Shown here in pieces: positions 13,248-38,347 of a DNA stretch of 44,300 nucleotides. A model generated the notes under the pieces. It worked only from the letters and a program-made list of their open reading frames with translations. It had not been told where the DNA came from and made no database searches. The DNA is from a virus. The DNA is taken from the IMG/VR virus record IMGVR_UViG_3300050138_000339, positions 1 through 44,300 of that record, one strand, 5' to 3'. The first letter of the stretch is position 1. Each line of letters opens with the position of its first letter. A program made the translations under genes and the position numbers.

Positions 13248-14638
13248 CCCGAAACGCCCGCCGTGACGAACGTCGCCGCCTCTTGGACGAACTGCCCCAA
13301 AGGCTTCAAACTGCCGTCCGCGTTGCGCGTGTTCGGCGGCCTCGGTGCCGGGGGCGGAGCCGTCTGCGTCGGAGCGCCTCCGCTCGCCGCCCGACCCGCC
13401 GCAAGCGCCTGCTGCCGCGCAAGCTCAACCTGCCGCTGATCGACCTGCTGCAGCGCCGCCGCTGCTGGGCTCGCCGTCGCGGCCAACCGCTCTTGCTCGA
13501 GCGCCTGCGCGCCCTGAGCGCCGAAGATGATCGCAGCCTTGAGCCCGTAGGAATCGACGTATCCCGCGCTTCTGGCGTACTCACACGCCTTCTGCCAATT
13601 CGGGTCGTTTGGACCCTTCCCGGGATCGTAGTAGCCCGGATACATGCGCGCAAGGTCGGCATGAGCCGCCTGCATCTGCGCCGCGACGTTCGCGTTCTGC
13701 TGCTGCTGCTGACGCGCGCTCTGCTCCTGTTGCGCTCGTTGCTGCTCGATCGTCGCAAACCGCTGGTCGTACCGCTGTTCGATTTGGTCGAAGCGACTGA
13801 GCACCGGAGCAAGGGCCGCATTGACGAGCGGGTCCTCAAAGAGCGGCTCGGTGGGCGCGCCGTTCTGCGGCGGCGCAAACTGCTGCTGCGGCGGAACCTG
13901 GCGCATCTGCGCTGCCTCTTGGACGGCGGCTTCCAGGAGCGGCAATCCGGCCTGCGCGCGCTGATAGCCACGCACGACGTAATCGCCGTAGGTCGGGTCG
14001 GCCAGGGCCATCTGGATGAGCGGCAAGATGTTCTTGAAGCGCCCATCGGCGATGAGCGGCTCGATGATGGGAGCGGCGTCCCCCCACTTCTGGCGCATCC
14101 GGTCGTAGTCGGCCCGGCGCGGAAAGCCGCGCTTGGCAATGTCCTTGAACTGCTTGGGGACGCGCACGGGCACCTTGAGGTCCAAGTCCGGGTCGTCTAC
14201 GTCGAACTGCTCGTATTCAGCGAAGGCGTCCACGATCTGCTGCGCTACGGCGTCGGCGGCTTGGGTGCCGGCCGCCTGCTGCGCGCTTTCGGTTGTCGCG
14301 GGAGCCGTGGCTGCATCCGCGGCGGCTTGCGCCGGGGTCTGCCCTGCGGCGGGCGTGGCCGTCGCCTGTGGGGTGCCTCCGGTCGTTTCGCTGTCGGCGG
14401 GCATCGCCACGCCGCCATCGGCAAACGCCGGGACCTTCGGAGGCGCAACGATTGGACGGCCCGTGTTCGGGTCGAGCGCCGTCGTCCCGCGCGAAAAGGC
14501 CGGGACCTCGGAGGCGGCAACCGCCGCCGCGGCGTCGGGCTGTATCCCGCGCTCGGTCACGATCTTCTCTTGGAGCGCCTTCGCGTGGTCGCGGATTGAC
14601 GGGAGGGGCTTGTCCTGCAGAGCGGCCTCATTTGCCAT
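13244..14638 (-). CDS. Scaffold-like protein
   Basis: The 464-aa protein is rich in Ala, Gln and Pro. It has a flexible N-terminal half, a charged segment (EYEQFDVDDPDLDLKVPVRV at about residues 141-160) and a long Gln/Arg/Ala helix around residues 295-335 (FDQIEQRYDQRF, IEQQRAQQEQSARQQQQQ) that probably forms a coiled coil. The C-terminus is Ala- and Pro-rich. This build, and the place between portal and capsid in the head gene order, fit a scaffolding protein that shapes the procapsid and then leaves. No protease motif was seen. The ATG at 14638 is clear. The gene ends inside the stop of the opposing winged-helix gene. Confidence 0.55.
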   Translation of the reverse strand: MANEAALQDKPLPSIRDHAKALQEKIVTERGIQPDAAAAVAASEVPAFSRGTTALDPNTGRPIVAPPKVPAFADGGVAMPADSETTGGTPQATATPAAGQTPAQAAADAATAPATTESAQQAAGTQAADAVAQQIVDAFAEYEQFDVDDPDLDLKVPVRVPKQFKDIAKRGFPRRADYDRMRQKWGDAAPIIEPLIADGRFKNILPLIQMALADPTYGDYVVRGYQRAQAGLPLLEAAVQEAAQMRQVPPQQQFAPPQNGAPTEPLFEDPLVNAALAPVLSRFDQIEQRYDQRFATIEQQRAQQEQSARQQQQQNANVAAQMQAAHADLARMYPGYYDPGKGPNDPNWQKACEYARSAGYVDSYGLKAAIIFGAQGAQALEQERLAATASPAAAALQQVDQRQVELARQQALAAGRAASGGAPTQTAPPPAPRPPNTRNADGSLKPLGQFVQEAATFVTAGVSG

Positions 14639-14671
14639 GAGCGGTTCCTACTTTTTGGGCGAATGGTGAAA

Positions 14672-14746
14672 TGGATGCGGGACCTGGATTTGAACCAGGG
14701 GCCTTCGGGTTATGAGCCCGACGATCTACCGCTGATCTACCCCGCA
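14672..14746 (-). tRNA. tRNA with anticodon CAU (Met or Ile2)
   Basis: Read on minus, the 75 bases fold into a full cloverleaf. The acceptor is TGCGGGG with TCCCGCA, the D stem GATC/GATC with a short loop, the anticodon stem TCGGG/CCCGA with loop CTCATAA, and the T stem CCTGG/CCAGG with loop TTCAAAT. CCA is encoded. The anticodon is CAT. The first pair is T-A, not the C-A mismatch of initiator tRNAs, so it is an elongator Met or an Ile tRNA needing lysidine. The discriminator base is T, where A is usual for these tRNAs. It lies between a terminator and the scaffold gene. Confidence 0.85.
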
Positions 14747-20960: not shown

Positions 20961-23000
20961 ATGTCCTCTAGTCTGTACAGGCCAGAAGAATCTCTCGATC
21001 TCCCCGGCTTCCTGCGTTGGAAGTTTGGAAGCGACGAACCGCCCGAAGGACAAGGCAATATCTGGCGGCTCGCATCGACAGCGCACGTTCATTCGTCCTA
21101 CCACTTCTTCGCGTCGAACTTCGCCTACGTCGCCGACAAGCGCGGCGAACTCACGACGCTCCAACCATTCGTCGGGCAAGCCATCCATCGCGTCACCCTC
21201 GACTCGCAACTGCGCGCCGGGCTGCCCGGACGCATGGCCGAAGTCAAGGCCCGCCAACTCGGCTGGACCGTCGAGAACATCGCCCGCGCGCTCCACTTCT
21301 GCCTCGATGAGAACAAACGCGCGCTCATCCTTGTTGACGACGAGGACGTTGCCGCAGAGCAAGCCACGCGCCTCGGAACGATGCTCAACGGCCTGCCCGG
21401 CTGGCTTCAGCCGATGCGCCGCATTCAAAATTTGAAACATCTGGTCTTCGATAATCCGAACCCGAAAGACCGCGCGCGGAATCCCGGCCTCAACTCCGCT
21501 TCGCAAATCACCGTGCCATCGTCGTTCCGAGGCGTCCCGCCCGGTTTCGTCTGCATTTCCGAGTACGCGCACATGGACGCCGAACGCCAGAATAACGTGC
21601 AAATCGGCCTAATCTCGGCCATGCCGCTCTCGCCGTTTTCCATCCTCATCATCGACACGACGCCAGCCGGAATCGACGACAGCTACTATCCGATGGTCAT
21701 GGAGGCCGTCGCCGACAATCCAAAGTGGTCCAAACGCATCGAGAACTGGCCTGGAGAACTAAGCGCGCAAGACGTGCTCAACGGTATCCTCGGCGTTCCC
21801 GACTGCGTTGCCAAAGGATACCCCGGCGTTATGGTTCCTGCGATCTGCCCGTGGCGCTTTCACGAAGAATACACCTGCCGCACCAAAAACAACCCGCGCG
21901 GCGAACTTCGCCCGCTCACCAAAGAGCATCGCCGCGAAACAGAATCCACCCTCGGCAAACTTTCGAAGTATGGCGGCGAGGAAGAGATCGACTACCGCGA
22001 CCGCTACGGCCTTTCAACCGAGCGCGCGTTCTGGCGTCGTCGCAAAATCGACGGCTACAAGTTGCCGACCGAGGAATCAAAACTACTCGCTTTCAGGCAA
22101 GAGTTCTTTTCCACGATCGAGAGCGCGTTCCAGGATACGGGCGCGGCTCCGTTTGATCGAGCCTGCCTCGATACGCTCGGACGCCAAGAGCGCACTCCGG
22201 TCGCAGTCGGCCTCTTCGAAGAAGAAAACAAGTTCGCACATTGGGAACTCAACGGCTCGGATATAACAAGCGTCCACCGCGACCGCAACCCGTGGCACGA
22301 AATACGCATCTACGCGCCACCACAGCCTGGCGAAAAGTATACGATGGGCATCGACACGGACATTGCCTACGAGTCGCCCGACTCCGACGCTACGGTCGCG
22401 CAAATCGTGCGATTCCGGGATCGCAAAGTCTCCGCCACCTATGAAGCGCGCGTCCCGTCCCACTTGCTCATGCACCAATTTTACTACCTCTACAAGTGGT
22501 ACTTCAACTGTTACTACGCGATCGAAACTGCCGGCATGGGCTACGACCTTGTTCGGCGCTGCATCGACCGAGGCATGGGCAACGTCCACTACTACAAACG
22601 CTACGACGCCGACTACCCCGAGCCAACGAAGTTCCCCGGCTGGGAAACCAACCGCATCACGCGCCCGCAGATGGACCAATGCCTAACCGAAATGATTTGC
22701 CACCGCAACCCCGATAGCGGGAAGGCAGAGCCCCTCATCAACGTCCCCGACGCCAAGACGCTCAAGGAAATCCGTGGGCTGTCGCGCACTCCGAGCGGCG
22801 CGTTCAAGTCAGCGCGCGGTAAAGACGATCACGTTGACGCGCTCGACATTGCGTTGCTCATCGCGGCAGACCCGTACTCGGGGCTCATTCGCCGCGAACA
22901 GGAACTTGAGGAGCAGCGTAAGGCCGAGTTCGAGGCATCGTTCCGGTGGATTATCGGAGGCAAGAGCCAGCGGAACCGCCCCGACCTCGCTCGGATTTAG
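20961..23000 (+). CDS. terL: Terminase large subunit
   Basis: The 679-aa protein is the DNA-packaging motor ATPase and nuclease. The ATPase part has a variant Walker A (KARQLGWT, residues 96-103), a Walker B with catalytic Glu (FVCISEYAHM, Glu201) and the coupling motif IIDTTPAG (about 230-237). The RNase-H-like nuclease part has Asp465 (MGIDTD), Glu522 (IETAGMG) and Asp622/623/626 (KDDHVDALDIA). GGAAGG lies ten bases before the ATG. It is the only large plus-strand gene in a minus-strand region, with just 42 bases to the divergent neighbour. Its stop overlaps the next convergent gene by four bases. Confidence 0.92.
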   Translation: MSSSLYRPEESLDLPGFLRWKFGSDEPPEGQGNIWRLASTAHVHSSYHFFASNFAYVADKRGELTTLQPFVGQAIHRVTLDSQLRAGLPGRMAEVKARQLGWTVENIARALHFCLDENKRALILVDDEDVAAEQATRLGTMLNGLPGWLQPMRRIQNLKHLVFDNPNPKDRARNPGLNSASQITVPSSFRGVPPGFVCISEYAHMDAERQNNVQIGLISAMPLSPFSILIIDTTPAGIDDSYYPMVMEAVADNPKWSKRIENWPGELSAQDVLNGILGVPDCVAKGYPGVMVPAICPWRFHEEYTCRTKNNPRGELRPLTKEHRRETESTLGKLSKYGGEEEIDYRDRYGLSTERAFWRRRKIDGYKLPTEESKLLAFRQEFFSTIESAFQDTGAAPFDRACLDTLGRQERTPVAVGLFEEENKFAHWELNGSDITSVHRDRNPWHEIRIYAPPQPGEKYTMGIDTDIAYESPDSDATVAQIVRFRDRKVSATYEARVPSHLLMHQFYYLYKWYFNCYYAIETAGMGYDLVRRCIDRGMGNVHYYKRYDADYPEPTKFPGWETNRITRPQMDQCLTEMICHRNPDSGKAEPLINVPDAKTLKEIRGLSRTPSGAFKSARGKDDHVDALDIALLIAADPYSGLIRREQELEEQRKAEFEASFRWIIGGKSQRNRPDLARI

Positions 23001-23857
23001 CCCGCGTCCTTGCGCCGGATCGCGTGAAAGAGGCCGATGGTGTCACTGGCAGGCTTCAACGTGACGGCGAAACCTTTGGCGTAGAGAAAGTCCATGAGCG
23101 CGCCGGAATCGACCGGGAGCGGAAGGTTCTGCATTTCGGGCGCATCGGTCGGAACGATATGGTACTCGCCTGCGATCTCCTGAATGCGATCGAGCAACGT
23201 CGAGGTATAGAGGAGCGGCCATTCGCCGCCCTCGCAGTCAAGTTTGAGGAACCGCACCGATTCGTGCGGCGCGAGAATCTCGTCAAGCGAACGAGACTCG
23301 ACTACCGGGCCGACCACGCCAAACGAGTTCCACGCGCCGTTGTAGTGGTACTCTGGTGCGCGATGCTCGTCGCTTCGCACGACGGCGCAATGGTAGTACG
23401 CAACGCCGTCGTCCATGCCCGCAAGGTTCTGCTGCCCGGCCTCGACATGCCACGGGTCGATCTCGAAGGCGTAGATGGAGCGTGAACCCATGCGGTACGC
23501 GAGGTGGGCGAACGAGCCGATGTGCGCGCCAACGTCAATCACTACATCGTCTGCCGCGAGGGCCGGGCAGTTGTACTCGTTCTCGACGGCGACGGCCATC
23601 CAGGTATCTTTCTCCGACTGCGTTCGGTACGCGCGCGGCTTGAGGTGCGGCGGCCCGGCCCAGTTGCGGTCGAAGGCATCATCGCCGCCTCTCAGTAGTA
23701 TTTCTAATTCTTTGCGACACCACTCTTCAAAACAGGCACGAGCGATCTCCAACTTTGTTTCGATGCTTTCGCATAGTTTCCGAGACGTTTGGTTATCGCG
23801 AAGCTGAATCTCGGGGATAATGATCTCGTCACGATAGACCTTCCAATTCTCGCTCAT
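22997..23857 (-). CDS. FkbM-family SAM methyltransferase
   Basis: The 286-aa product has the SAM-binding motif VVIDVGAHIGSFA (105-117), an acidic strand end FEIDP (131-135) and the FkbM hallmark VRFLKLDCEGGEW (about 208-220). FkbM enzymes usually O-methylate sugars or other small groups. The ATG at 23857 overlaps the upstream glycosyltransferase stop (ATGA). It is the last gene of the glycosyltransferase run and would cap or tailor the sugars they add. The 5' part (23690-23800) is poorer in GC than its surroundings, which may mark recent gain. Confidence 0.8.
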   Translation of the reverse strand: MSENWKVYRDEIIIPEIQLRDNQTSRKLCESIETKLEIARACFEEWCRKELEILLRGGDDAFDRNWAGPPHLKPRAYRTQSEKDTWMAVAVENEYNCPALAADDVVIDVGAHIGSFAHLAYRMGSRSIYAFEIDPWHVEAGQQNLAGMDDGVAYYHCAVVRSDEHRAPEYHYNGAWNSFGVVGPVVESRSLDEILAPHESVRFLKLDCEGGEWPLLYTSTLLDRIQEIAGEYHIVPTDAPEMQNLPLPVDSGALMDFLYAKGFAVTLKPASDTIGLFHAIRRKDAG

Positions 23858-24591
23858 ACTGCTACCTTCTGCGCCCACTCGCGCATCATGTCGAGTTTCG
23901 ATTCAAGCGAACCGCCTCGCGCCGTCACAATCCAATCGCCATTCTTGTACGTGTCGGGATGAACGAAACCGACCTCGGTGTTCGGATAGCAGTTGCCGAA
24001 CGTGGCGCTGAACGGCGGCGTGTTCATTAGCCGCGTCATGCTGTCTTGGTCGGAGATTCCGTTCGGCTCGATCTTCCCGTGCCGCACGTTGTTCTCGATC
24101 GCCGCGCGTTCGTAGGCGTAGCGCAGGTGCTTCTCGGTTACGTCGTCCGTGCGCGCAATCCAAAGCCCAGAGAGCGGGCCGTCGTCGCCGTAGGTCCACA
24201 GGAAACGCGGTTCAGTCGGCGGCCAATGCTTGTAGGCAAACCCCTCAATACGCATTTCACGCACAAGCACATCATCAATCTTTGGCTCCATGTTCATAAA
24301 CAGGCTGTCTATGTCCAGGCTCATCACAATGTCAGCGTAGCCGCGCAAGTCGTGGTACAGGCTGAAGCGAACCTTGTCGCCGAACGTCTCAGGCCGCGAT
24401 GGGTCAAGATGAAACGCGCGCGGATACATCGTGAGAGAGTACCCGTGCCGCTCGCAATACGCCGCCCAATTCGGGCGCGCAATCTCGGCCAGCGGAGCGT
24501 AAGCGTCGTTCCAGCAACCGAACAACGCTACGCGCGGGCCGCTGTACCCTGCGGGGATCGTCGTGACCTGCTCGCGATAGAGTTCGCTCAT
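23854..24591 (-). CDS. Glycosyltransferase, GT34-like (1)
   Basis: The 245-aa protein resembles the galactosyl/xylosyltransferase group GT34. It has a first strand VALFGCW, the motif YCERHGY (45-51), and a metal-binding DID in ADIVMSLDIDSLFM (residues 93-95), which would hold Mn and the nucleotide sugar. The later part has GPLSGLWIAR, a probable acceptor or sugar site. No signal peptide is present, so it acts in the cytoplasm. It is coupled to its neighbours by ATGA overlaps and is related to the genes at 24836 and 25492. Confidence 0.7.
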   Translation of the reverse strand: MSELYREQVTTIPAGYSGPRVALFGCWNDAYAPLAEIARPNWAAYCERHGYSLTMYPRAFHLDPSRPETFGDKVRFSLYHDLRGYADIVMSLDIDSLFMNMEPKIDDVLVREMRIEGFAYKHWPPTEPRFLWTYGDDGPLSGLWIARTDDVTEKHLRYAYERAAIENNVRHGKIEPNGISDQDSMTRLMNTPPFSATFGNCYPNTEVGFVHPDTYKNGDWIVTARGGSLESKLDMMREWAQKVAV

Positions 24592-24839
24592 TCGATGCCC
24601 TCATGCACTCGCGCGTCGTAGTACGCCCTCGAAGGATAGACCGGGAACGGGCCTTCTTTCTTACCGCGAATCGACGGAAACGGGACGCCGTGGCACATGC
24701 TCGTGAACGAACGCGCTTCCTCGACGGCGACGTGCGGATGCTCCACAAGCCAGCGCGTCAGCACGTCGGCCTGGTCCATGCAGTAGCCGTGCGAGAGGCG
24801 AACCTTAAAGGCGAGGTCGTTCTTTTCTCCGTGCGTCAT
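24588..24839 (-). CDS. Hypothetical 83-aa protein in the glycan island
   Basis: It starts at ATG 24839 and overlaps both neighbours by four bases. The protein is soluble, His- and Tyr-containing (HGEKNDLAFKVRLSHGYCMDQ; PVYPSRAYYDARVHEG). I do not recognise it. Because it sits inside the glycosyltransferase run with the same coupling, a role in the same pathway, for example as a small partner, is likely but unproven. Confidence 0.45.
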   Translation of the reverse strand: MTHGEKNDLAFKVRLSHGYCMDQADVLTRWLVEHPHVAVEEARSFTSMCHGVPFPSIRGKKEGPFPVYPSRAYYDARVHEGIE

Positions 24840-25495
24840 TTCGCCATCGCAACATACTCGCGCAGTTTGTTCGTGCGCGTCGGCTCCTCGACGCCGGCCA
24901 GGTGCAAAATGAAGTCGCCAGGCTCGTAGCGGTTGACGTAGTTCCCGTACTCGCCAAAGTTCCAACCCTTCAAGGCGTAGTCGTTGCAGTTGAATACTTT
25001 GCCAGGGCACTCGCGATAGATTTCCTTGTGCGGCGACTTGATAGCCGTCTGCACCAAGCCCTCTTGGTCGGCCCACCCACTTGCTACGCTAATCGACGTT
25101 GCGACGGTCATAAAAAGCGAAGCCTCGGGCGAGAAGCGCGCGATGAACACGCCTGAGTTGAGGCCGTTTACATCGACGCCAATGAGGTAGTGAACGCTGC
25201 GCGGCATGAGCGCGTACACGATCTGTTCGATGCGAATGTCAGAGTTCAGAATCGCCGCGTCGGTATCAACCCATACGAATACGTCGTCAGGTCCAAGCCG
25301 CTCAGTCGGCGTGGGAAGAACGGCGCTGAACGCCTGCTGAAACATGGCGACCTTGCAGGCGTCCTTGTCCGTTCGGTTTCCGTCGTAGAAGAAGTAGTAG
25401 CCGTGTTTTTCGCAATAGTGCTTCAGGGTTGGCAGCGTGATCGCCGCGAGGTCGGCGTATTCCGGTCCGTGCGCCGTGCAGATAACCACCTTCAC
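24836..25495 (-). CDS. Glycosyltransferase, GT34-like (2)
   Basis: The 219-aa protein starts with GTG at 25495 (GTGA overlap). It shares the plan of the gene at 23854: a first strand VVICTAHG, YCEKHGY at 27-33, and the metal-binding DTD in VFVWVDTDAAIL (77-79). The segment GLNSGVFIARFS corresponds to the sugar-acceptor site of the family. It is shorter than most GT34 enzymes, so some C-terminal elements are reduced. It would transfer a hexose or pentose from a nucleotide sugar; donor and acceptor cannot be told. Confidence 0.68.
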   Translation of the reverse strand: MKVVICTAHGPEYADLAAITLPTLKHYCEKHGYYFFYDGNRTDKDACKVAMFQQAFSAVLPTPTERLGPDDVFVWVDTDAAILNSDIRIEQIVYALMPRSVHYLIGVDVNGLNSGVFIARFSPEASLFMTVATSISVASGWADQEGLVQTAIKSPHKEIYRECPGKVFNCNDYALKGWNFGEYGNYVNRYEPGDFILHLAGVEEPTRTNKLREYVAMAK

Positions 25496-26265
25496 GGCAG
25501 AAGCCCCAGGCGCTCGACGTACTCGTTTGCGATCTCGATGCGCCGCGCAATCGGTAGCGCGCTCAGGTGAAGCGCAAGCGATTCTTTCTCATCCCATTCG
25601 TATATCTGACGAGCACGTTTGGGCTCACGGTACGTGTCGGGAACCATCGCGCACAGCGTTCTCACGCTATGGAACCACACCATGTACGAGTACGGCGGCG
25701 TCGCCAAGAAGAAGCGCATTGAGAGTTGGTCGGACCAGTCATCGGTTTGGAAGTACCGCTGCCCGGCGTTCGCGTTCGCCCAAGCAAAGCCGAGCGTGTA
25801 CGCCGTGCGCCGCATCATAATCACCGTCGCATGGAGCCCGTTGCAATCGTGTGTGAGAATTATATCCCCAAGCGTCGAGTCGGGCGCATCGGTGCCCTGG
25901 CGCTTCTCGTTGAAAAACTTTTCAAGCGGCGTTTCGTAGTCCGTGATGAGCAAGTCGGCGTCGAACCAAACGACCCAATCCCACTCCTCGCGGCAACTGT
26001 CCGGGTCAAGGTAGTGCGTGAACAGTCGGAACTTGATGAAGTATTTGATCGGAAGATACTCGACCTTGTTCTCGTTCGTCTTGGTCGAGCGAGCATGGTC
26101 GTAAATGTCGGACACGTCTAGGCGGTACGTGTACCCCTGGCGTTCGCAATACTTGCGATGCGTTGCTCCGGTTATGGCATGGAGGTCGTGCCAGGTTGGC
26201 CCCGTCTCGCCAGGACGGCGCGGCGGGATACTGCACAGAACCAGGACGCGCGCTTTCTCAGACAA
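25492..26265 (-). CDS. Glycosyltransferase, GT34-like (3)
   Basis: The 257-aa protein starts with TTG at 26265 and overlaps the upstream gene by eight bases. It has the first strand VLVLCSIPP, the shared motif YCERQGY at 39-45, NKVEYLPIKYFIKF, and the metal-binding DAD in WVVWFDADLLI (102-104). Together with the two genes downstream it forms a set of three diverged relatives, each with Y-C-E-(R/K)-(H/Q)-G-Y before a DxD. Likely use is successive addition of sugars to a virion or host-surface target. Confidence 0.68.
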   Translation of the reverse strand: MSEKARVLVLCSIPPRRPGETGPTWHDLHAITGATHRKYCERQGYTYRLDVSDIYDHARSTKTNENKVEYLPIKYFIKFRLFTHYLDPDSCREEWDWVVWFDADLLITDYETPLEKFFNEKRQGTDAPDSTLGDIILTHDCNGLHATVIMMRRTAYTLGFAWANANAGQRYFQTDDWSDQLSMRFFLATPPYSYMVWFHSVRTLCAMVPDTYREPKRARQIYEWDEKESLALHLSALPIARRIEIANEYVERLGLLP

Positions 26266-27154
26266 GGCGCTGCGCCATTTCGAACTTCCGCACCTTGCAG
26301 ACGTTTTCGTACTTGAGCAGTTCGACTTCGATTGGCGAATGGTAATCGGCGCTGGTGTCCGTGTCGCTCGTCACGCGGTAGTCCACTCCACGAAAAGCAT
26401 AACCGCGCGAATTGAACGTCCTCGGCGTAGCGGTGCAAACGATCTCGGGCCGCGCGCTCTCGTCGTACACGTCGTGTTCGCCGCGCACCGCTGCCGCAAG
26501 CGCCTGTCCCCCGGCTTCCGAGCCGACCCACGCGCGGCATGATGCGAGCATATCCAAGTATTCGTAGATGCTCTGCGGCTGATAGGACGCAGCGGTGATC
26601 GGCGGCGCGTGAAGGGCGACGTGGCGGGGATGCGTGATGAGCAGCATCGGCGCGTTGCGGAATCTGCCGCGCATCATCTTGACCGCTTCGCCCACGCCGC
26701 GAATCCCGATATGCGACGACACCGCCGCGAAGTCGAGCAGCACCGTGCCGCTCAAGTCCATGCGATGTTGCTGCGGCTCGTAGTAGATTTTGGGCGCGAT
26801 GCCGTAAGGCGGCGGGAGCGCGTGGGCGCGTTCCATCGCCTCGATGCTGCGGTATCCGGGAAGGCGGTTTGCGATCTCGTAGAACAGCCCTTGGCGGACG
26901 TAGCCTGCGTTTGGCTTCTTATCGCTTAAGCCTTTGATGTGCGGGTTGCGCGACCACAGCAACTCATAGATTTCCGGGTTGCTCGTCGTGCTGTCTTGGT
27001 CGAGGTACACGTCATAGCCGAGCGCGGCGAAGCGTTCGGGGAGGGTCGAATAGCCGCTATGGTCGCCAAGCCCAAGGAGCGGCCCCGCAGTGAGAACGAT
27101 CGGGTTCGTCGGTAACTGTGGCTCCAGGATCGCCGCGAGTTCGGCTTTGGTCAC
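26258..27154 (-). CDS. Glycosyltransferase-like protein (fourth GT)
   Basis: The 298-aa product (GTG 27154, overlapping the zinc-ribbon TGA) has no clear DxD in the usual place. It has a two-domain look: a strand-turn start LLGLGDHSGYSTLPERFAAL followed by GYDVYLDQD, and a later region with GSEAGGQALAAAVRG (about residues 209-225) that resembles the donor-site of GT-B enzymes such as the heptosyltransferase group (GT9). It is therefore probably a GT-B-type transferase, or a glycan-binding relative of one. It is the first gene of the island in transcription order. Confidence 0.5.
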   Translation of the reverse strand: MTKAELAAILEPQLPTNPIVLTAGPLLGLGDHSGYSTLPERFAALGYDVYLDQDSTTSNPEIYELLWSRNPHIKGLSDKKPNAGYVRQGLFYEIANRLPGYRSIEAMERAHALPPPYGIAPKIYYEPQQHRMDLSGTVLLDFAAVSSHIGIRGVGEAVKMMRGRFRNAPMLLITHPRHVALHAPPITAASYQPQSIYEYLDMLASCRAWVGSEAGGQALAAAVRGEHDVYDESARPEIVCTATPRTFNSRGYAFRGVDYRVTSDTDTSADYHSPIEVELLKYENVCKVRKFEMAQRLV

Positions 27155-27318
27155 GCCGCGCGCTTGTCTTTGTGGCAAGCGATGCACAACTCGACTCGTC
27201 CGCGCGCATCGAGCACCAGGCGCTTTGCCTGGATGGGATGCCTCGTTCCGCAGTCGGCGCAGACGAATGTGCGCGCCGGGCGCTTGAGCGTTTGCAGCGC
27301 CACGCCGCTCATGCTCAT
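27151..27318 (-). CDS. Small zinc-ribbon protein
   Basis: The 55-aa product has two CxxC pairs, CADC (20-23) and CIAC (46-49), enclosing a short basic loop, which is a zinc ribbon. The ATG at 27318 overlaps the upstream TGA; a second ATG six bases on is the alternative. Such proteins bind nucleic acid or protein partners. It links the virion-gene part of the operon to the glycosyltransferase run by four-base overlaps on both sides. Confidence 0.55.
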   Translation of the reverse strand: MSMSGVALQTLKRPARTFVCADCGTRHPIQAKRLVLDARGRVELCIACHKDKRAA

Positions 27319-27863
27319 TCCTGTTCCCATCCGTTCTCGCCGCGCGTGAGGCGAACGCCGTCGATCCGTGCGAGTACGTCGATTTGATTGACGATGCGGA
27401 TTTCGCGGCCGACGATGCGGAGCGCGCGACCGCGCGCGTTCATGTCCACGAACACCACGTCGCCCGGCGCGAAGAACATCGGCACGTCGGCTGGAACGCG
27501 AACGAGTACCTCCTCACTTGCACGTGGGTCTTGGCGCGCAACCGCAACGCGCGGGTCGGGAAGTCCGAGCAGGTGCCCGTTGCCGGCCGTGACGATAACC
27601 GCCGCAAGAACGCCGCGCTGCTCGATCTGCGGATTCGCCATCGGGTCGCGCGGGTTCATCTGCGGGTCCTGCGTGACGACGAGAATCTTGCCGAACTCGA
27701 CCTCCTCATTGAGGGCGATAATCTCAACGACGTATCGGTCGCCGTTGGGAATGATGCTCTCGGGCGAGACTTTGTGAATCTTGAGTTCGAAGCGTTCCGG
27801 TGTCCTCGGTTGTTGCTGTGCGCCGAGGAGCGCGCCGCCCTTGAGAATGCTTGGGTCGATCAT
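27315..27863 (-). CDS. Co-chaperonin (GroES/Cpn10)-like protein
   Basis: The 182-aa protein resembles co-chaperonins in its second half. GVLAAVIVTAGNGHLLG is followed by a mobile-loop-like part, then PGDVVFVDMNARGRALRIVG and INQ/VNQIDVLARIDGV, which match the GroES order of G-x-V-x-A-x-G-x-G, GD-V-x-F, and a D-I-L-A end. A phage co-chaperonin, like T4 gp31 (which works with host GroEL), would help fold the major capsid or other virion proteins. The first 60 residues are unlike GroES. Confidence is limited because this is recognition by motif order only. Confidence 0.4.
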   Translation of the reverse strand: MIDPSILKGGALLGAQQQPRTPERFELKIHKVSPESIIPNGDRYVVEIIALNEEVEFGKILVVTQDPQMNPRDPMANPQIEQRGVLAAVIVTAGNGHLLGLPDPRVAVARQDPRASEEVLVRVPADVPMFFAPGDVVFVDMNARGRALRIVGREIRIVNQIDVLARIDGVRLTRGENGWEQE

Positions 27864-27873
27864 CGTAACCTTT

Positions 27874-28467
27874 CTATTTTGCGCTGGCTTTCGCCATGCG
27901 AAGATATTGCTCGAATGAGCCGCCGAAATTGTTGCCAGCGCCTTCTGTCTCGTTGATCATGTCGATCGCCTTCAGGCTCGCGGCGGGATTGTTCGAGTAG
28001 GCGTGTTTGCGAAGGAGGTTCGTTCGCGCGGCCACCGAGAGGTCGTTGCGTTCGAGCACTTCGGCAAGTTCAGTCGAACCGATGCCGCTGCGAACGTCGG
28101 CCTGTAGTTCCATGCGATTGGCCTTGGCTTCTTCTTCGGTGACGCCATAGACGCTCGCGAGCGCCGTGATTTGATTGCCGCCGGTTTCTGCGAGCACGTC
28201 GAGGTAGTCGTTGTACCGCGTTGCGCGGGCGCGCAGTTCGGTGCGCGCTGCGGTGCGCGCGGCCAGGTCCTCTTTGCTCATGCGGCGCTTGGGCTCCGCG
28301 TGAATGGTCGTGACGTTCGAGGCTTTGCCGGGCACGGCACCGGGCGGCGACTCGTAGGGGTCCTTATCGTGTTCGTGCCGATGGCGCGGATGCGCGGGCG
28401 GCAGCATGAGCGGCGGCTGCTCCATGTTCGTGAGTTGATCGTCGCCGCGCGACTTACGCCGCGGCAT
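27874..28467 (-). CDS. Possible terminase small subunit
   Basis: The 197-aa protein has a basic, disordered N-terminus (MPRRKSRGDDQ, then a His/Pro-rich stretch HPRHRHEHDKD). A helical domain follows (residues 85-150, with RYNDYLDVLAETGGN and VYGVTEEEAKANR), then a C-terminal helix with NPAASLKAIDMINETEG. This last motif is typical of small terminase subunits and their relatives that recognise phage DNA. The start overlaps the stop of the upstream gene (TAATG). If correct, the two terminase subunits are on opposite strands and about 5 kb apart, which is unusual. Confidence 0.4.
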   Translation of the reverse strand: MPRRKSRGDDQLTNMEQPPLMLPPAHPRHRHEHDKDPYESPPGAVPGKASNVTTIHAEPKRRMSKEDLAARTAARTELRARATRYNDYLDVLAETGGNQITALASVYGVTEEEAKANRMELQADVRSGIGSTELAEVLERNDLSVAARTNLLRKHAYSNNPAASLKAIDMINETEGAGNNFGGSFEQYLRMAKASAK

Positions 28468-29177: not shown

Positions 29178-31418
29178 CTACTTGGTCGGGAAGGTCGATG
29201 GTCCGGCTTGGGATGGCGGGTCCAGGCGCAGGGTGCGCGTCATCTGCTGGAGCGCCGCGTCTCCGAGCGACTGCGGCTTGAACGCGCCAAACCCAAACTC
29301 TTGAAGCGCGGTGCGCGCCTCGGGAACCCCCGCCGTCGCCATCTGCGCCAAAATCTTGAGCGCGTCTGAGCGTTTGGTCGGATCGAGGCCGTAGGTGAAG
29401 AACGGCTTGCCTTTGCCCGACGCCTTCTCCAAGAGCGCAAGAACGATCGAGACTGGCGTCGAGAGCGTCTTGCGCCCGAAGGTCGCGCCCGCCTTGAGGT
29501 CGGCGCTCGCCGCCTTATCGTCCCCGCGGAGCGCGTCGATGGGAGCGCCGAACACCTGGACCGCTCGCCCGATTTCGGCCGGCGGCAGGTACGAGCGAAA
29601 CTTTCCGGCTGGCGTATCAACGTCGTTGCCGTAGAGGCCGCCTTGAGTCGCGCGATTGAGGAACGCCGCGCGCATCGGGTTCTTCGCAACGCCGCCGAGT
29701 ACGGCTTTGGGAATCCCCGTGTTGAAGGTGGCAAAGGGCATGAAGTTGCGCGCCGCTTCGGTGAAGGGCGAAACGTGCTCGTAGTCAACGAGGCCCTTGC
29801 GCGCAGAACGCCCGGCCTGGTAGCCGACGTTGCCGCCGCGCTCTGCGGCATGGGCGAGCGTATCGGCCAGAGCCTCATCGAAGGCCCAGGTGCCCTTGTT
29901 GATGAGTTGCATCGCCTTGCCGGGAAGCGAAAGCGGTCCCGGCAGCGAGCGCAGGAAGTCGATCACGGCGGTGGACTTTTCTGAGTTCGGGCCAATGGCT
30001 CCGAGGCGAATCCCGTTGCGAAGCAACTGCTGGCGCATGTCCGGGCGCGCGAGCAGGGCGATCGATTTCGGCAGGGCCTTGGCGGCGGCGACCATGCCGC
30101 CGGGTTGCGTGAGCGCAAGGCCGAGGATATTGGCGATATGGCCCGTGCCCGTGCCGACGACGGCGGTTTTGGGCAGGTTGACGAAGCCGCGCCACAGGTC
30201 GCCTGCGGCTTCCTTCGTCGTGCGGCCCGTGCCGCGGCCGCGCACCGTGTACTTGAACAAGTCCTCAATATCGGTCGGAATCGCCTTTGAGGTCCCGCTC
30301 GTCGCAAAATACTTCTGGAGCTCGTCGCGCAATTGCTGACCAGCCGCAAGACGCGAGCGCGAGCGGTTCGCGCCCGCGAGCAGTTCGCGCCCGTGTTCCG
30401 CGCTTTCGATGGGTTGGGTTGCGCCTTCGCGAACGAGCGTATGCGGATCGAACGGGTCGAGCAGGTTGCCCTCGAAGGTCTTGCGCGCTTCGAGTCCTTC
30501 GGCCCCTTCGTTGCGGCTCGGGAAGTAGTTCTGGCGCGGCGTGTAGTCGGGCGCGTACACCTTGGCGATGCGCGAGTGCTGCATCCGCCAGCGGTCCATT
30601 CCCGTAGCCGCCTTTTGCTCGGCCTCGTCCAACTGCGTAACCGGAATCTCGCCGTTCATCCAGCGAAAGACCTTGACTTGCTGGTCGTCGTTCAGGCCGC
30701 GCAGCGACGTTTCGACTTGCTTGTCGAGTTTCTTTGCGAGGCCCGAGCCGCGTTCGAGCGCGCGGCTCTTGGCTCCGACGACGTGCTCGACGGTATCCAC
30801 GCCGTGCGCGCGCTTCTGCGCGCCGGCGTAGGTGAAGAAGTCGTGGAAGATACTCGCGACCGACTGCACCTCGTAGGGCATTTTCGCGGCAACCGTCTTG
30901 AGGAGCGGCGCGGCGGCGCGGAGCGCGCCTTTGGGAATCGCCCCGAAGCCGAGCGTTTCGTAGGTGAGGGGGTCTGTGACCGTATCGAGCGCGAGATCTA
31001 CGATGCCTTGGTTCCAATGCGGGGCCTGCGAGTAGAGCCCGGTGCTCCCGAGGAACGAGTGCGGGTCCTCAAGGCCGAGTTTTTGGCGTAGCCGGGCGCG
31101 GTTCTCATCGGACGAACCGCCGTGGAAGATGTGCTCTTGGGTGCCAGCGCGTTGGTAGTCGAGCGCATTTGAGAGCGCCGAGACGCCTTTCTTCGCCGCG
31201 CCGGCCGCTCCGGGCATCGCGCCGAGAATCGGTCCGACGACTGGCGCAGCGGATACCGTCGCCGAGAAGGCGTCCTGGCCTTGGGCGGCGGTCGGCTTCT
31301 TCGCGGCGATCAGCGAATCGAGCGCACCGCCTCCACTGCCGGGATGCGGCGCTGGTGCGGGCGCAGAGGGCGCGGCAACCGCCTTCTTTTGCGCGATGAG
31401 GTCATCGAGGGCGGACAA
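29178..31418 (-). CDS. Large internal virion (ejection) protein
   Basis: The 746-aa product (TTG 31418) is long, helical and basic, with hydrophobic segments such as AAPVVGPILGAMPGAAGAA (about residues 57-75) and a His/Arg-rich middle. The N-terminus repeats a short motif, ALDDLIAQKK (3-12) and ALDSLIAAKK (32-41). No enzymatic motif was found. In podoviruses the large genes next to the virion block encode proteins ejected with the DNA into the cell; size, charge and position fit this. It is the fourth large gene of the group in transcription order. Confidence 0.5.
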   Translation of the reverse strand: MSALDDLIAQKKAVAAPSAPAPAPHPGSGGGALDSLIAAKKPTAAQGQDAFSATVSAAPVVGPILGAMPGAAGAAKKGVSALSNALDYQRAGTQEHIFHGGSSDENRARLRQKLGLEDPHSFLGSTGLYSQAPHWNQGIVDLALDTVTDPLTYETLGFGAIPKGALRAAAPLLKTVAAKMPYEVQSVASIFHDFFTYAGAQKRAHGVDTVEHVVGAKSRALERGSGLAKKLDKQVETSLRGLNDDQQVKVFRWMNGEIPVTQLDEAEQKAATGMDRWRMQHSRIAKVYAPDYTPRQNYFPSRNEGAEGLEARKTFEGNLLDPFDPHTLVREGATQPIESAEHGRELLAGANRSRSRLAAGQQLRDELQKYFATSGTSKAIPTDIEDLFKYTVRGRGTGRTTKEAAGDLWRGFVNLPKTAVVGTGTGHIANILGLALTQPGGMVAAAKALPKSIALLARPDMRQQLLRNGIRLGAIGPNSEKSTAVIDFLRSLPGPLSLPGKAMQLINKGTWAFDEALADTLAHAAERGGNVGYQAGRSARKGLVDYEHVSPFTEAARNFMPFATFNTGIPKAVLGGVAKNPMRAAFLNRATQGGLYGNDVDTPAGKFRSYLPPAEIGRAVQVFGAPIDALRGDDKAASADLKAGATFGRKTLSTPVSIVLALLEKASGKGKPFFTYGLDPTKRSDALKILAQMATAGVPEARTALQEFGFGAFKPQSLGDAALQQMTRTLRLDPPSQAGPSTFPTK

Positions 31419-31421
31419 GGG

Positions 31422-33023
31422 TTAGAGTCCGCGAGCGGTGGGCGGAACGGGCACGGTCGGAAGCGACGGCGTTGCGCCGCCGAGCCCGGCGTCGTGGACG
31501 ATCGCCGCATGAACTTGCGGGTCGTCCAGATTGAGCCCCGCCGCCTTGGCTTTGTCGTAGCCTGCTTTGACCGCCGGAATCTTGAGGTCGTAGTGAAACA
31601 GGGGCGCGCCGCTCGAACCTTTCGGCAGGTTGGCTCCGAGGCCGTAGGCGTTGGGAATGCTCATGTCGGGTTTGATTTGCCGCCCGTTTGCCGTGTGCTG
31701 GAGCGCATACACGTCGCCCGCCTGCTGGAACAGGTTTTGGAAATTGACGTTCTTCGTATCGGCGATGAGATGCTTGGCGAAGGTCTGCGGGTCCGACGAG
31801 TTCCGAATGCTCATCATCGCCTTCTGAAGCGTCTGCCAGTCAGCGGAGCCGAACGATATCGCGGGCGGCATTGTTCCGTGTGGAACCGTCAACTCGCGCA
31901 GGTCCGTCGCCAGGGTTTGCGTTCCGCGCGTCGCCTCGGCTTGGAGTTGGAGTTTCTTTTGCGGGTCGCCGAGCGCGGCTTTGAACTGGTCGTGCCACAC
32001 CTCGAAGTGCTCGCGCTGATTCTCCAGGACCTCACGCGAGCCGATCTCCGCCGACGTGCGGGCGTTCGCCGCCCCAATGGCAGCGTACCGCGCGCCGATC
32101 CCGGCGGCGGCCCGGGCGTTCTCTTGCTGCTGCGTGACGAGCACCTTCTGCCAGGCCGCAACGTCTTTTTGCGTTTGGAGCGCCGTCTGCTGATAGTCTT
32201 TTTGCTCGGTCGTATACCGCGTCACGGCACCATCGTCGCCGTTGCGCGCGGCCAACTGAATCAAGCGATCGTATCCGGCCATCGTCGCGGCAGTTTGGTC
32301 GCCGCCCTTGGGAACCTTTGGGGTCGCCTGCCCGAGCGTCGGATATCGGAACGGCGTCGGCTGACCATCGGGGCCGACCTTGAGCGGGTTGAGCCCCTTC
32401 GAGCGAAGCGCGGCGTTATTGTCCCAGACGATCTTCGCGTTCGCAAACGCGCGCTGCTGCTCGGCAAGCCCGGCATCATACGCCGCCTTCGCGTTCTCGT
32501 ACGTGACGTTCGCGGCGTTCTGCTGGGCCGTGTACTGTTCTTTTGCCTGGTCCTCGCGGCGCTGATACCCCTGCTCTGCCCCGGTGTTGAGCCCTTTGGC
32601 AAGCGCACCGCCGGCCTGGCCGATCGCCGAGCCCGGAAAGAGCAGCGCAAGTCCCGCGGCAAGGTATTCGAGCGCGTTGCTCGGCTTCTTGTACTGCGCC
32701 GCGGCGAATGGCGTGTTCTCCATTTGGGGCGGCGGCGGAGCGGTGCCGAGTTGCGGGGGCGCGGCCTGACCGCTCGGCGCGGGTGCGCCTCCGCTTGAAG
32801 GCGACGACGGCGTAACCGCTTGGCGCAACGCCGTTCCCTCGCGGCGTTTGGCGTCGGTCTTGGCGGACTTGCGATCGCGCGCCGCAGGAGCGGCGGAGGG
32901 CAGCGTGACGACACGCCCGCCCGGCAGCACTTGGGTTCGCGTCCCAAACGGCGGCGGCTGCGGTCCCGTGAACGCAGGGGTCGGCTGCTGGGTCGATGGA
33001 GGCGGGGTGGGCCACTCGATCAC
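31422..33023 (-). CDS. Ejection-type virion protein with coiled coil
   Basis: The 533-aa product starts with GTG 33023, which overlaps the upstream TAG by one base; the longer frame is a shadow. After a Pro-rich start it has a hydrophobic stretch (ALEYLAAGLALLFPGSAIG, about residues 116-135), then a long Gln/Ala/Glu/Lys coiled coil (about residues 148-200), and a C-terminal globular part (NVNFQNLFQQAGDVYAL). Internal virion proteins that form a channel or scaffold for DNA entry often have this layout. No enzyme motif was seen. Confidence 0.5.
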   Translation of the reverse strand: MIEWPTPPPSTQQPTPAFTGPQPPPFGTRTQVLPGGRVVTLPSAAPAARDRKSAKTDAKRREGTALRQAVTPSSPSSGGAPAPSGQAAPPQLGTAPPPPQMENTPFAAAQYKKPSNALEYLAAGLALLFPGSAIGQAGGALAKGLNTGAEQGYQRREDQAKEQYTAQQNAANVTYENAKAAYDAGLAEQQRAFANAKIVWDNNAALRSKGLNPLKVGPDGQPTPFRYPTLGQATPKVPKGGDQTAATMAGYDRLIQLAARNGDDGAVTRYTTEQKDYQQTALQTQKDVAAWQKVLVTQQQENARAAAGIGARYAAIGAANARTSAEIGSREVLENQREHFEVWHDQFKAALGDPQKKLQLQAEATRGTQTLATDLRELTVPHGTMPPAISFGSADWQTLQKAMMSIRNSSDPQTFAKHLIADTKNVNFQNLFQQAGDVYALQHTANGRQIKPDMSIPNAYGLGANLPKGSSGAPLFHYDLKIPAVKAGYDKAKAAGLNLDDPQVHAAIVHDAGLGGATPSLPTVPVPPTARGL

Positions 33024-33850
33024 TACGGCCCGCCGCCGAGGAAGGTGCCAAGGGCGGAGAACCCTTCGCCGACTGCCTGATTCTGCGCGTTGAGCGTATT
33101 GCTGTAGACGTTGCCGAAGGTGCTTCCGGTGCCCGAGAGTTCGTTGCCGTAGGATGACGTGACCCCTGAGTTCGGGCCAAACGAGTTGAGGTAGGCCGCC
33201 TGGAGGGCGCTTGCGTTCCCAGACCCCAGCCCCAAGAGTTCGTTGAGGTAGTTGTTGTAGGCGCTCGCGTTCCCGCCGACCGCGGTCGAGTAGGCGTTGG
33301 CGTTGTAGACCGAAGCGTTGTTCCCAGCTTGGGCGTTCTGGGTGTCGGCGGCCTGGTTGTAGCCAAACGCCTGCGAGACGAGCGGCGCATCCGCGCTTGC
33401 TAGGGTCGCACTCTGCTGTCCGAGCAAATTGCCTTGGAGGTACGACGCGGCCCCGGAATCCTGGATGCCGCGCGCGGCGTTGGATTCGGCCAACTGTTCT
33501 TGCTGCTGCTGAAAATAGGGCGTGAGTCCCTGTTGCTGCATCTGCGAATATTGCTGGTAGTAGGCTTGGGCGTTCGCCGGGTCGATGTAGGTCGGGCTGA
33601 TTTGCGCGACGTTGCCGAAGGACTGATAGGGCAGCGGGGCCGTTGCGCCGATGTTGCCGGGTTGCAGGGCCGTGCCGCCGGGCAACGCCGACGCCGGCGC
33701 GCTGCCAGGCGTGGTCGATCCCGCGGCAGGGGCAGGCGGGGGCGAGTTCGTGCCCGGCCACTGATAGCCGGGGCTCGCGCCGTTGCTGCTCCAGCCTCCA
33801 TCGCCGCCCGTACTTTGCGCTGCGACCTCGGTGCCAAGTCCAAAACTCAT
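33023..33850 (-). CDS. Asn/Gln/Tyr-rich virion protein
   Basis: The 275-aa protein begins at ATG 33850 (ATGA overlap with the upstream gene). It is unusually rich in Asn, Gln, Ser, Gly, Ala and Tyr, with a Pro/Ser-rich start and stretches such as YYQQYSQMQQQGLTPYFQQQ. It has few charged residues. This composition is typical of virion parts that refold when released. It is grouped with the other large virion genes and may be an ejection or tail-assembly protein. Nothing more precise can be said. Confidence 0.45.
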   Translation of the reverse strand: MSFGLGTEVAAQSTGGDGGWSSNGASPGYQWPGTNSPPPAPAAGSTTPGSAPASALPGGTALQPGNIGATAPLPYQSFGNVAQISPTYIDPANAQAYYQQYSQMQQQGLTPYFQQQQEQLAESNAARGIQDSGAASYLQGNLLGQQSATLASADAPLVSQAFGYNQAADTQNAQAGNNASVYNANAYSTAVGGNASAYNNYLNELLGLGSGNASALQAAYLNSFGPNSGVTSSYGNELSGTGSTFGNVYSNTLNAQNQAVGEGFSALGTFLGGGP

Positions 33851-34539
33851 GCGGGTTGCGGCGCTCCGCTCGGGGGCGCGGGCCAGCCGTTCCCGCCACC
33901 GCCTGGCCAACCGGAACTATTGCCCCAGGTGTTGCCACCGCTTCCAGGCCATCCGCTCGAGTTCTGCGGCGATGCGGGGCCGAGCGAGGCCAGCGCCGTC
34001 GCGGCATACGGACTTGCGCCGGGGTTCCCAACGCCGAGCGGCCCACCGAAGGGGTTGATCGATCCCGCTCCGGTACTCGTCGTCGCGGCATTTCCGCCGC
34101 CACCAGCTCGCGTTCCGGGAAGTCCGCCGACCGGAGCCCCCGAAGCGCCGCCTCCACCCACGGGCGAGGTCGCGGCACCGCCAGGCGTTACGACCGTATT
34201 CGGGGCGGTCGTGTTCACGGGTGGCCCAAAGGAGCCCGAAGGCCCAAGCGACGTGCCCGGACCAAGCGAAGCGAAGGTCTGCGTACCCGCCGGGTTGACC
34301 GCATACGCCGCAGGGTTCATCCCTTGCGCGGCCGTGAAGTACTGATTCTGACCCGTGCCCGTGATCGCGGCCTGAAGATTGCCCTCCTGGCCGCTCACGT
34401 AGTTTTGCTCTTGGGTCATCAAGGGCGCAAGCGCCGCAATCTCTGAGTTCGCAGCCGACGTCGCCGACTTCGACGGAGAACTAAACAGCGATCCGATGGT
34501 CCACCTCTGCTGGAATATCCTTGGCGTACACGTTGGCAA
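33847..34539 (-). CDS. Gly/Ser/Pro-rich virion protein
   Basis: The 230-aa frame has a helical start (NSEIAALAPLMTQEQNYVSG) and then a long low-complexity region of Gly, Pro, Ser, Thr and Asn ending in repeated SSGWPG and GNGW motifs. The start is uncertain. The only in-frame starts before residue 41 are a TTG at 34539, inside the acetyltransferase gene, and non-standard codons; an ATG at 34419 would shorten it by 40 residues and leave a gap. Composition resembles the next gene. It is probably a virion component. Confidence 0.45.
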   Translation of the reverse strand: MPTCTPRIFQQRWTIGSLFSSPSKSATSAANSEIAALAPLMTQEQNYVSGQEGNLQAAITGTGQNQYFTAAQGMNPAAYAVNPAGTQTFASLGPGTSLGPSGSFGPPVNTTAPNTVVTPGGAATSPVGGGGASGAPVGGLPGTRAGGGGNAATTSTGAGSINPFGGPLGVGNPGASPYAATALASLGPASPQNSSGWPGSGGNTWGNSSGWPGGGGNGWPAPPSGAPQPA

Positions 34540-34903
34540 CGACCTCGTAACCGCGTTTCTTTAGCGCCGCGCAATGCGCCGGGTTGTCGATCCTCGCAAT
34601 GCCGCCAAGCGGCAGCGAATCCACGCCGCGATCACGGGCAATTCGTGCGATCGTGCTTTCGGTCCAACGCGCCAACATCCCCAGAGCAAGACGGCCCAGA
34701 CGATCGCGCTTGCCCCACATCTCGTCAATGGCAAAACCGTAGCCCGTCTCGCGTAAGAGCGCGAACGCCTCAACCCGCCCGGCGTCGTCCCGAACCACCG
34801 CCCCATGCGCGCCGGGCGCAATCACCAAGGGACCTGCGTTCCAATCACGCATCAGCGACTGCACATCGGCAGCGTCCTCAGAACGCAGCGGCTCGACCCT
34901 CAT
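34481..34903 (-). CDS. GNAT-like acetyltransferase
   Basis: The 140-aa protein starts at ATG 34903, with AAGGA five to six bases upstream, rather than at the ATG at 34909. It fits the GNAT fold: a first strand and helix (VEPLRSEDAADVQSLM), AVVRDDAGRVEAFALL, a central strand (YGFAIDEMWGKRDRLGRLALGML) whose basic loop can hold acetyl-CoA, and a last part (AHCAALKKRGYEVV) with the typical Tyr near the end. The substrate is unknown. Phage acetyltransferases can modify host proteins or small toxic compounds. It is a reduced version, so activity is not certain. Confidence 0.5.
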   Translation of the reverse strand: MRVEPLRSEDAADVQSLMRDWNAGPLVIAPGAHGAVVRDDAGRVEAFALLRETGYGFAIDEMWGKRDRLGRLALGMLARWTESTIARIARDRGVDSLPLGGIARIDNPAHCAALKKRGYEVVANVYAKDIPAEVDHRIAV

Positions 34904-34953
34904 CACCATCCTTGTAGCGCAAGCCCGGCCAACCGCGCAAGACAACGGCCGTC

Positions 34954-35076
34954 CTAACGGTAAATCACGAGCACCGCCACGATGAACCCAAAGAAGAAGC
35001 CCGGCAGAAACCCGAGCCCGAGCAAGGTCCACTCCACGCGGTTGAGGTTCGGCTCAGACGAGGGCGGCAAACGCAT
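34954..35076 (-). CDS. Small single-helix membrane protein
   Basis: The 40-aa product has a polar start (MRLPPSSEPNLNRVEWT) and one strong membrane helix (LLGLGFLPGFFFGFIVAVLVIY). GGAGG lies three bases before the ATG at 35076, which is close but acceptable. It is the first gene of the long minus-strand run that ends at 22997. It is too short to assign. Single-helix phage proteins of this kind act in lysis or as membrane inhibitors. Confidence 0.45.
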   Translation of the reverse strand: MRLPPSSEPNLNRVEWTLLGLGFLPGFFFGFIVAVLVIYR

Positions 35077-37559: not shown

Positions 37560-37688
37560 ATGACATACACAGACGCCAAGTGCCCTCAATGCGGCAAGGA
37601 ACTGTTCTCGTCCACGCCTCCCTGGGAAGCCAAGAAGGGCGAGAAAATCAAGGTTGACACCTGCCTCGACCACGGTAAGGTGGCGTGA
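37560..37688 (+). CDS. Small zinc-binding protein
   Basis: The 42-aa product starts at ATG 37560 with AAGGGA about eight bases upstream. It contains CPQC at residues 9-12, a Lys-rich middle and DTC-LDH near the end, enough for one zinc site. An ATG at 37452 would give a 78-aa form with an unlikely N-terminal part. The stop overlaps the methyltransferase GTG (GTGA). Confidence 0.45.
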   Translation: MTYTDAKCPQCGKELFSSTPPWEAKKGEKIKVDTCLDHGKVA

Positions 37689-38347
37689 AGCCTAGACTGC
37701 TGGACCTTTTCTGTGGGGCAGGCGGGGCCGCGATGGGCTACCACCGCGCGGGTTTCGAGGTCGTGGGCGTAGATATTGCGCCTCAGCCTCATTACCCGTT
37801 CGAGTTTCACCAAGCCGACGCGCTCACGTTTCTCAATGACACGGTTCTGCGAGGGCCGTTCCATGAGAATTACGGCAGCTTTGACGCTATCCACGCCTCG
37901 CCGCCATGCCAGGCTTACACTACGTACGCAGCGCGCTCTTCAAAAACTCACCCAGACCTGATCGAAACCACGCGGGAACTACTGCGCGGGAGCGGGCTGC
38001 GATACGTCATAGAAAACGTCCCTGGAGCGCCTCTGCTTAACGCCGTAACCATTTGTGGAACAGCATTCGCCGAGTTACGTGTGAGGAGGCATCGACTCTT
38101 TGAGTCAAAGGTTCCGATGGAAGGAACGGCCTGCAATCACGACCGACACCCCGCCAACATTCGTATTATGAACCGCGGATGGAAGATGAGCCGCTTCGTT
38201 CCGGTCTACGGTTCCACCGGATGCAAGGCGCGTGAACTGTGGCCGAGCGCGATGGGGATAGATTGGATGAGCAACGACGAACTGCGCGAGGCAATCCCCC
38301 CTGCCTACACGGAATGGGTCGGCGCTCAACTCCTCGCCTCTCTCTAG
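37685..38347 (+). CDS. Cytosine-C5 DNA methyltransferase
   Basis: The 220-aa protein (GTG 37685) has the cytosine-methyltransferase motifs in order: LLDLFCGAGGAAMGY (motif I, residues 5-19), ASPPCQ (motif IV, catalytic Cys75), ENVPGAP (motif VI, 110-116) and RVRRHRLFES (motif VIII, 132-141). It is shorter than stand-alone enzymes of about 300-400 residues and has a small target-recognition part, as in many phage enzymes. No restriction partner is present, so it probably protects phage DNA from host restriction enzymes. Confidence 0.85.
   Translation: MKPRLLDLFCGAGGAAMGYHRAGFEVVGVDIAPQPHYPFEFHQADALTFLNDTVLRGPFHENYGSFDAIHASPPCQAYTTYAARSSKTHPDLIETTRELLRGSGLRYVIENVPGAPLLNAVTICGTAFAELRVRRHRLFESKVPMEGTACNHDRHPANIRIMNRGWKMSRFVPVYGSTGCKARELWPSAMGIDWMSNDELREAIPPAYTEWVGAQLLASL

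Follow-up and report, generated by a model that had tools for sequence, protein, structure and literature searches.

The window analyzed here is the entire 44.3 kb metagenome-derived IMG/VR record IMGVR_UViG_3300050138_000339, which is identified as a tailed phage by matches to terminase, portal, major capsid and tail spike proteins. Convergent with its TerL gene lies a cassette of six minus-strand genes that encode four predicted glycosyltransferases (GTs), namely GTB and the GT34-like GT1, GT2 and GT3, along with a small conserved protein (U83) and an FkbM-family methyltransferase (Table 1). The genes are linked by ATGA/GTGA coupling, with overlaps of 4-8 nt between neighbors, and the end of the FkbM gene shares 4 nt with the stop of the convergent TerL. 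The coordinates of the open reading frames (ORFs) bear out the six open, overlapping genes at 22997-27154 in the order proposed in an initial annotation made from the sequence alone. The coding signal is strong in 5 of the 6 genes; U83 is not called by this measure and yet is conserved. Given this signal and the presence of orthologs in the same order in other phage contigs, the cassette is not a chance arrangement. The link to a run of virion- or packaging-type genes, also part of the initial annotation, is supported by the position of the cassette in one run with g182 and g197.

Table 1. Positions in the window of the cassette genes and of the adjacent genes
Gene	Product	Position	Strand	Remarks
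GTB	GT-B-like glycosyltransferase, 309-aa protein	26258..27154	-	GTG start at 27154; longer ORF from 27187
GT1	GT34-like GT-A glycosyltransferase, DxD, C-terminal HLSA	25492..26265	-	PF05637, 3.5e-4; own clade
GT2	GT34-like GT-A glycosyltransferase, DxD, C-terminal HLAG	24836..25495	-	PF05637, 6.3e-8; pLDDT 92 model
U83	Conserved 83-aa protein	24588..24839	-	Homologs tied to the cassette in relatives
GT3	GT34-like GT-A enzyme, Thr replacing the C-terminal His	23854..24591	-	Orthologous group; FkbM fusion in G2 and L038
FkbM	FkbM-family methyltransferase, likely sugar O-methyltransferase	22997..23857	-	PF05050, 4.2e-11; orthologs
TerL	Terminase, convergent with the cassette; locates the cassette in relatives	20961..23000	+	phrog_5989, 5e-5; 59-70% identity in relatives
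g197	Probable small terminase/packaging protein, upstream in the same run	27874..28467	-	From position of homolog; no family match
g182	Conserved morphogenesis-region protein upstream of GTB	27315..27863	-	Kept in the lineage; homolog between TerL and portal in L048/L050

The GT34-like enzymes

Each of the three proteins contains the motif YCE(R/K)(H/Q)GY and a DxD motif, as the initial annotation noted (YCERQGY and WFDADL in GT1, YCEKHGY and WVDTDA in GT2, YCERHGY and LDIDSL in GT3). A Pfam profile search matches GT2 to PF05637 (GT34) with 33.1 bits, over the curated cut-off of 23 bits; GT1 (20.8 bits) and GT3 (16.2 bits, 0.009) fall under the cut-off when searched singly, and an extra GT of the relative G1 scores 64.4 bits. 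In the PDB, a profile built jointly from the GT-A proteins of the cassette identifies the xyloglucan xylosyltransferases XXT5 (1.6e-8) and XXT1 (8e-8) and A64R of the chlorovirus PBCV-1 (1e-7). The profile of GT2 alone detects A64R at 3e-4, and the GT1-only and GT3-only profiles do not recover it from the PDB. Because the joint profile matches both GT34 xylosyltransferases and A64R, the GT34-like assignment of all three GTs, which together with the GT2 match to PF05637 agrees with the initial description of three diverged enzymes, is sound.

Structure prediction was applied to GT2 and GTB. The GT2 model, with a predicted local distance difference test (pLDDT) score of 92, shows a GT-A fold with the DxD motif, matching 2p73 and 6bsu. 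Its best PDB match is domain 1 of PBCV-1 A064R (2p73/2p6w), with Z 21.4 and a root mean square deviation of 2.3 over 187 residues; the second-best, xyloglucan xylosyltransferase 1 (Z 16.9), scores far lower. Both profile and fold connect the cassette enzymes with the GT34 xylosyltransferases, but XXT1 and XXT5 are plant enzymes and the fold score is below that for A064R domain 1.

In a tree of sequences from five phages, GT1, GT2 and GT3 each form one clade (supports 100/99, 96/96 and 93/91, respectively), so that, judged by sequence, these are three separate orthologous lineages. That the three copies have stayed apart over this divergence argues for three different reactions. In conservation, GT2 keeps level with TerL (76% versus 68% identity between the window and G1). 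The DxD motif is invariant across the orthologs of all three enzymes, and in GT1 D102, D104 and H233 are invariant in 5 orthologs. The C-terminal histidine, a metal ligand in GT34 enzymes, is kept in GT1 and GT2 and replaced by threonine in every GT3 ortholog seen; GT3 is possibly metal-independent or of altered chemistry.

GTB and U83

Neither GTB nor U83 has a Pfam match. GTB orthologs in other phages share 50-68% identity. The AlphaFold model of GTB, built from a five-sequence alignment, is poor (pLDDT 48), and the Foldseek and VIA matches of this model are mostly to GT-B enzymes (TibC, WaaC, WaaF and LpxB; TM 0.27), the best being TibC (E 1.9e-4) and WaaC (Z 7.8, the highest, over residues 136-237); TibC, WaaC and WaaF, all near the top, are heptosyltransferases. 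The "GT-B-like" label of the initial annotation thus gains moderate support from these fold matches, tempered by the quality of the model and the lack of a Pfam match.

Family searches with U83 likewise return no match. Its homologs are tied to the cassette in G1, G2, G3, G4, L038, L052 and L044, and its serine/threonine content is 10%, with no enrichment.

FkbM and other methyltransferases

The assignment of the last cassette gene to the FkbM family stands: the protein matches PF05050 with 43.7 bits (cut-off 22.7), and the scores in G1 and G2 are 46.4 bits. A search against PDB sequences gives nothing useful. Orthologs are present in G1, G2, L038, L052 and L044. G2 and L038 encode GT3 and FkbM as a single fused protein, of 488 aa and 521 aa, respectively. 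The FkbM of L052 is instead joined to a methyltransferase-like domain resembling MT2, a second methyltransferase-like protein. The G4 cassette encodes a Methyltransf_24 methyltransferase and MT2, the latter 38% identical to that of G3. Every cassette readable to its end contains at least one methyltransferase, but the families differ. Methylation, or the transfer of a related group, may thus be needed whereas the enzyme would be exchangeable.

The MT2 family, which has no Pfam match, is encoded beside the cassette at L017:9226-9816, L036:16661-17266, L038:6326-6925 and G1 13599-14695, and is present twice in G1.

Conservation and spread of the cassette

The order GTB-GT1-GT2-GT3, accompanied by U83 and at least one methyltransferase, is fixed in the window, G1, G2, G3, L038, L052 and G4. 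G1 and G2 match the window in both gene content and order; G3 (L017) and L038 carry extra methyltransferases. Genes for HNH-type endonucleases are located inside the cassette at L017:6400-6993 (HNH_3 match) and L052:13326-13847 (identified by eye).

A census of TerL with a floor of 46% identity yields 12 relatives. At 59% or more, cassette genes are present in all 8 contigs that read past the end of TerL, and two others stop inside TerL. These eight contigs amount to about six independent genomes because L045 and L053 nearly duplicate G1 and L038. The distant relatives L048 and L050 (TerL identity 46-49%) have g197-TerL-g182-portal in one run with no cassette there, and GTB and FkbM were not found in the remainder of the 48 kb L050 record. 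The TerL of L038 (6922-10035, minus strand; 1037-aa ORF) contains an intein after TerL residue 304 (Intein_splicing, 3e-12; LAGLIDADG, 3e-17), and the TerL of L053 is split in the same way.

G4 is unrelated to the window: it has a 127-bp end repeat and shares no recognizable terminase, portal or capsid genes, and nevertheless holds GTB-GT1-GT2-GT3, methyltransferases and U83. The cassette is thus a real module, and it seems to move between phages as one unit, U83 included.

Outside this group, a DNA-level search of 50,697 phage records detects no relatives of the window, a tblastn search of the same records with GT2 finds no match, and only weak relatives of GTB and FkbM are present among them. 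Alignments of GTB and GT2 detect no relatives in bacterial and archaeal genomes, and GT34 is found in 0 of 14 control prokaryote genomes, which raises the question of the source of GT34 in phages. GT34 proteins have already been annotated in uncultured phages.

Comparison with known systems

PBCV-1 A064R, a protein with two GT domains and one methyltransferase domain, finishes the capsid N-glycan with two rhamnoses and one O-methyl group. The 2-O-methylation of the terminal rhamnose is carried out by its methyltransferase domain, and a further methyl is contributed by a second enzyme (PMC9614988). Most chlorovirus GTs have no membrane segments (PMC9614988). The cassette resembles A064R in that the nearest solved fold of GT2 is A064R domain 1, a GT34-type GT-A domain with DxD, and in that a soluble, virus-encoded GT is fused or coupled to a methyltransferase (GT3-FkbM in G2 and L038). 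It differs in belonging to a tailed phage, in consisting of separate genes instead of one three-domain protein and in combining three GT34-like enzymes with a GT-B-like one; the identity between GT2 and A064R domain 1 is only about 20%. The parallel between the parts is strong; a likeness in activity, such as rhamnosyl transfer to a capsid glycan, is hypothetical.

Among phages, glycosylation of capsid and tail proteins is known from mycobacteriophages (PMC12363180, PMC11256854), the cases of Che8, Corndog and Myrna being attributed to Freeman et al. 2023 as cited in PMC12363180. As in the window, the GTs are phage-encoded, and the acceptors proposed are capsid or tail proteins; the four-GT cassette with its methyltransferase(s) has a different composition. 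In Rhodococcus cluster CB phages, a GT (gene 60) and a methyltransferase (gene 49) of Peregrin have been read as virion glycosylation (PMC13313380). This proposal pairs the same two activities, but Peregrin has one GT and one methyltransferase that are not adjacent, a distinction drawn from the published description. The initial statement that a methyl-capped glycan on a virion would be unusual is accordingly only partly right, given that the PBCV-1 capsid has one (PMC9614988) and that the Rhodococcus GT and methyltransferase have been interpreted as glycosylating the virion (PMC13313380). A GTB homolog (26% identity, 8e-15) is encoded among glycosyltransferases in the sugar cluster of cyanophage P-TIM68 (AIR93518-AIR93533); unlike the cassette, this cluster includes nucleotide-sugar genes and phosphoheptose isomerase genes, and its annotation names no GT34-FkbM set.

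Predicted function of the cassette

The gene families, their conservation and fixed order, the fusion and the nearest fold of GT2 are established computationally. The interpretation that we favor, with middling confidence, is that the cassette encodes a soluble cytosolic assembly line that would decorate a virion protein with a short methyl-capped oligosaccharide. The enzymes would be made late, along with the products of the packaging/virion gene run. GTB would probably place or extend the first sugar, GT1, GT2 and GT3 would then add one sugar apiece from host nucleotide-sugar donors, and FkbM, most closely coupled to GT3, would O-methylate the terminal sugar, with U83 as a putative adaptor, partner or acceptor. 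The most likely acceptor would be one of the structural proteins, so that the particle would exit the cell carrying the short methyl-capped oligosaccharide; the virion is preferred because neither a DNA base route (five records) nor GtrA (six records) was found, no transmembrane segments are predicted in the cassette proteins, and the genes are located in the packaging run. The initial annotation left virion proteins and host sugars as equal choices; these observations, with the capsid-glycan fold, lean toward the virion, short of proof. Its suggestion of late expression fits the gene order, the sole basis for this timing, whereas promoter and terminator scans give signals no better than chance.

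A broader version, in which the cassette is to phages what the capsid-glycan machinery is to chloroviruses, a prokaryotic counterpart in the form of a horizontally mobile module of four GTs, methyltransferase(s) and U83 that makes a multi-sugar O-methylated particle glycan, with U83 handing the virion protein to the enzymes, is put forward only tentatively.

Several points weigh against virion glycosylation. The acceptor is a prediction from the genes, and the GT-A fold does not by itself point to one acceptor, being used by plant xyloglucan and bacterial lipopolysaccharide (LPS) enzymes as well. The fold suggested for GTB comes from a poor model. In G4, the cassette is not beside TerL; the glycan genes of PBCV-1 are early rather than late genes; and the relative L052 has an integrase, which leaves room for a lysogenic surface-modifying role.

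This last point leads to the best-surviving alternative, in which the enzymes would act on the host envelope, altering its LPS core, O-antigen, capsule or teichoic acid late in infection or during lysogeny and so preventing re-adsorption or superinfection. The weak fold matches of GTB include the LPS heptosyltransferases WaaC and WaaF, and the tail spike of the window has a pectate-lyase-type domain, so that the host surface probably carries a polysaccharide. However, L052 is the sole integrase carrier of six records, the others being the window, G1, G2, G3 and G4, and the cassette sits among packaging and virion genes. Neither does it resemble a gtr-type serotype conversion cluster: the GtrA flippase family (PF04138) was not found in the six records, and the cassette proteins are without membrane segments. 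Modification of the host envelope is thus rather unlikely. Glycosylation of a non-virion protein, for instance U83 serving to carry the glycan or a host protein that infection inactivates, would account for the linkage between the cassette and U83, which has no other assigned role and is retained in the unrelated G4 as well; the lack of serine/threonine enrichment in U83 speaks against it, and we regard this possibility as improbable. Synthesis of a small glycoside or exopolysaccharide appears very unlikely: similar clusters of GT and methyltransferase genes do occur in exopolysaccharide pathways and the host would supply nucleotide-sugar donors, but no export, polymerase or sugar-nucleotide synthesis genes were found among the window ORFs scanned, and the cassette is tightly coupled to packaging genes. 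A hypermodified DNA base, for which a C5-methylase mark would be oxidized, then glycosylated and methylated, is less likely still: a short C5-cytosine methylase-like ORF, missed by the initial annotation, is present in the window (37685-38347, plus strand; PF00145, 3e-6) and in G2, but not found in G1, G3 and G4, all of which bear the cassette, GT34 is a sugar-chain family, and TET/JBP and thymidylate-synthase/dCMP-hydroxymethylase families were not found in five records, some of which may be fragments. Plain DNA glucosylation, already considered unlikely in the initial annotation for want of a base-hydroxymethylating enzyme, is rejected on the same ground. The window also contains a Dam-like gene (40612-41157, minus strand).

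The idea of virion glycosylation is not new, considering the mycobacteriophage and Rhodococcus phage precedents and the methylated capsid glycans of chloroviruses. As far as our searches reach, this module is new, with its chlorovirus-like GT34 fold, fixed gene order, GT-methyltransferase fusions and U83. Virus-encoded synthesis of capsid glycans is best understood in giant algal viruses, and to our knowledge only a few actinobacterial cases of virion glycan synthesis have been shown in phages. If virion glycosylation is confirmed, ordinary-sized phages, too, would make elaborate methyl-capped virion glycans, and the six-gene set would offer a testable handle on the role of such a coat in shielding from recognition, particle stability or adsorption.

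Neighboring genes

The g197 protein may be the small terminase, given that its homolog directly precedes TerL in L048 and L050. Directly upstream of GTB, and overlapping its start, is a gene for a 59-aa CxxC...CxxC zinc-ribbon-like protein (27151-27330, minus strand). Further along, the minus-strand region 29178-35032 encodes large Ala/Gly/Gln-rich proteins (one of 746 aa and its neighbors) that have the look of ejection or internal virion proteins; these are poorly conserved among the relatives and have no family match. A tRNA-Met (CAT) gene is located within the virion gene run (14672-14746, minus strand).

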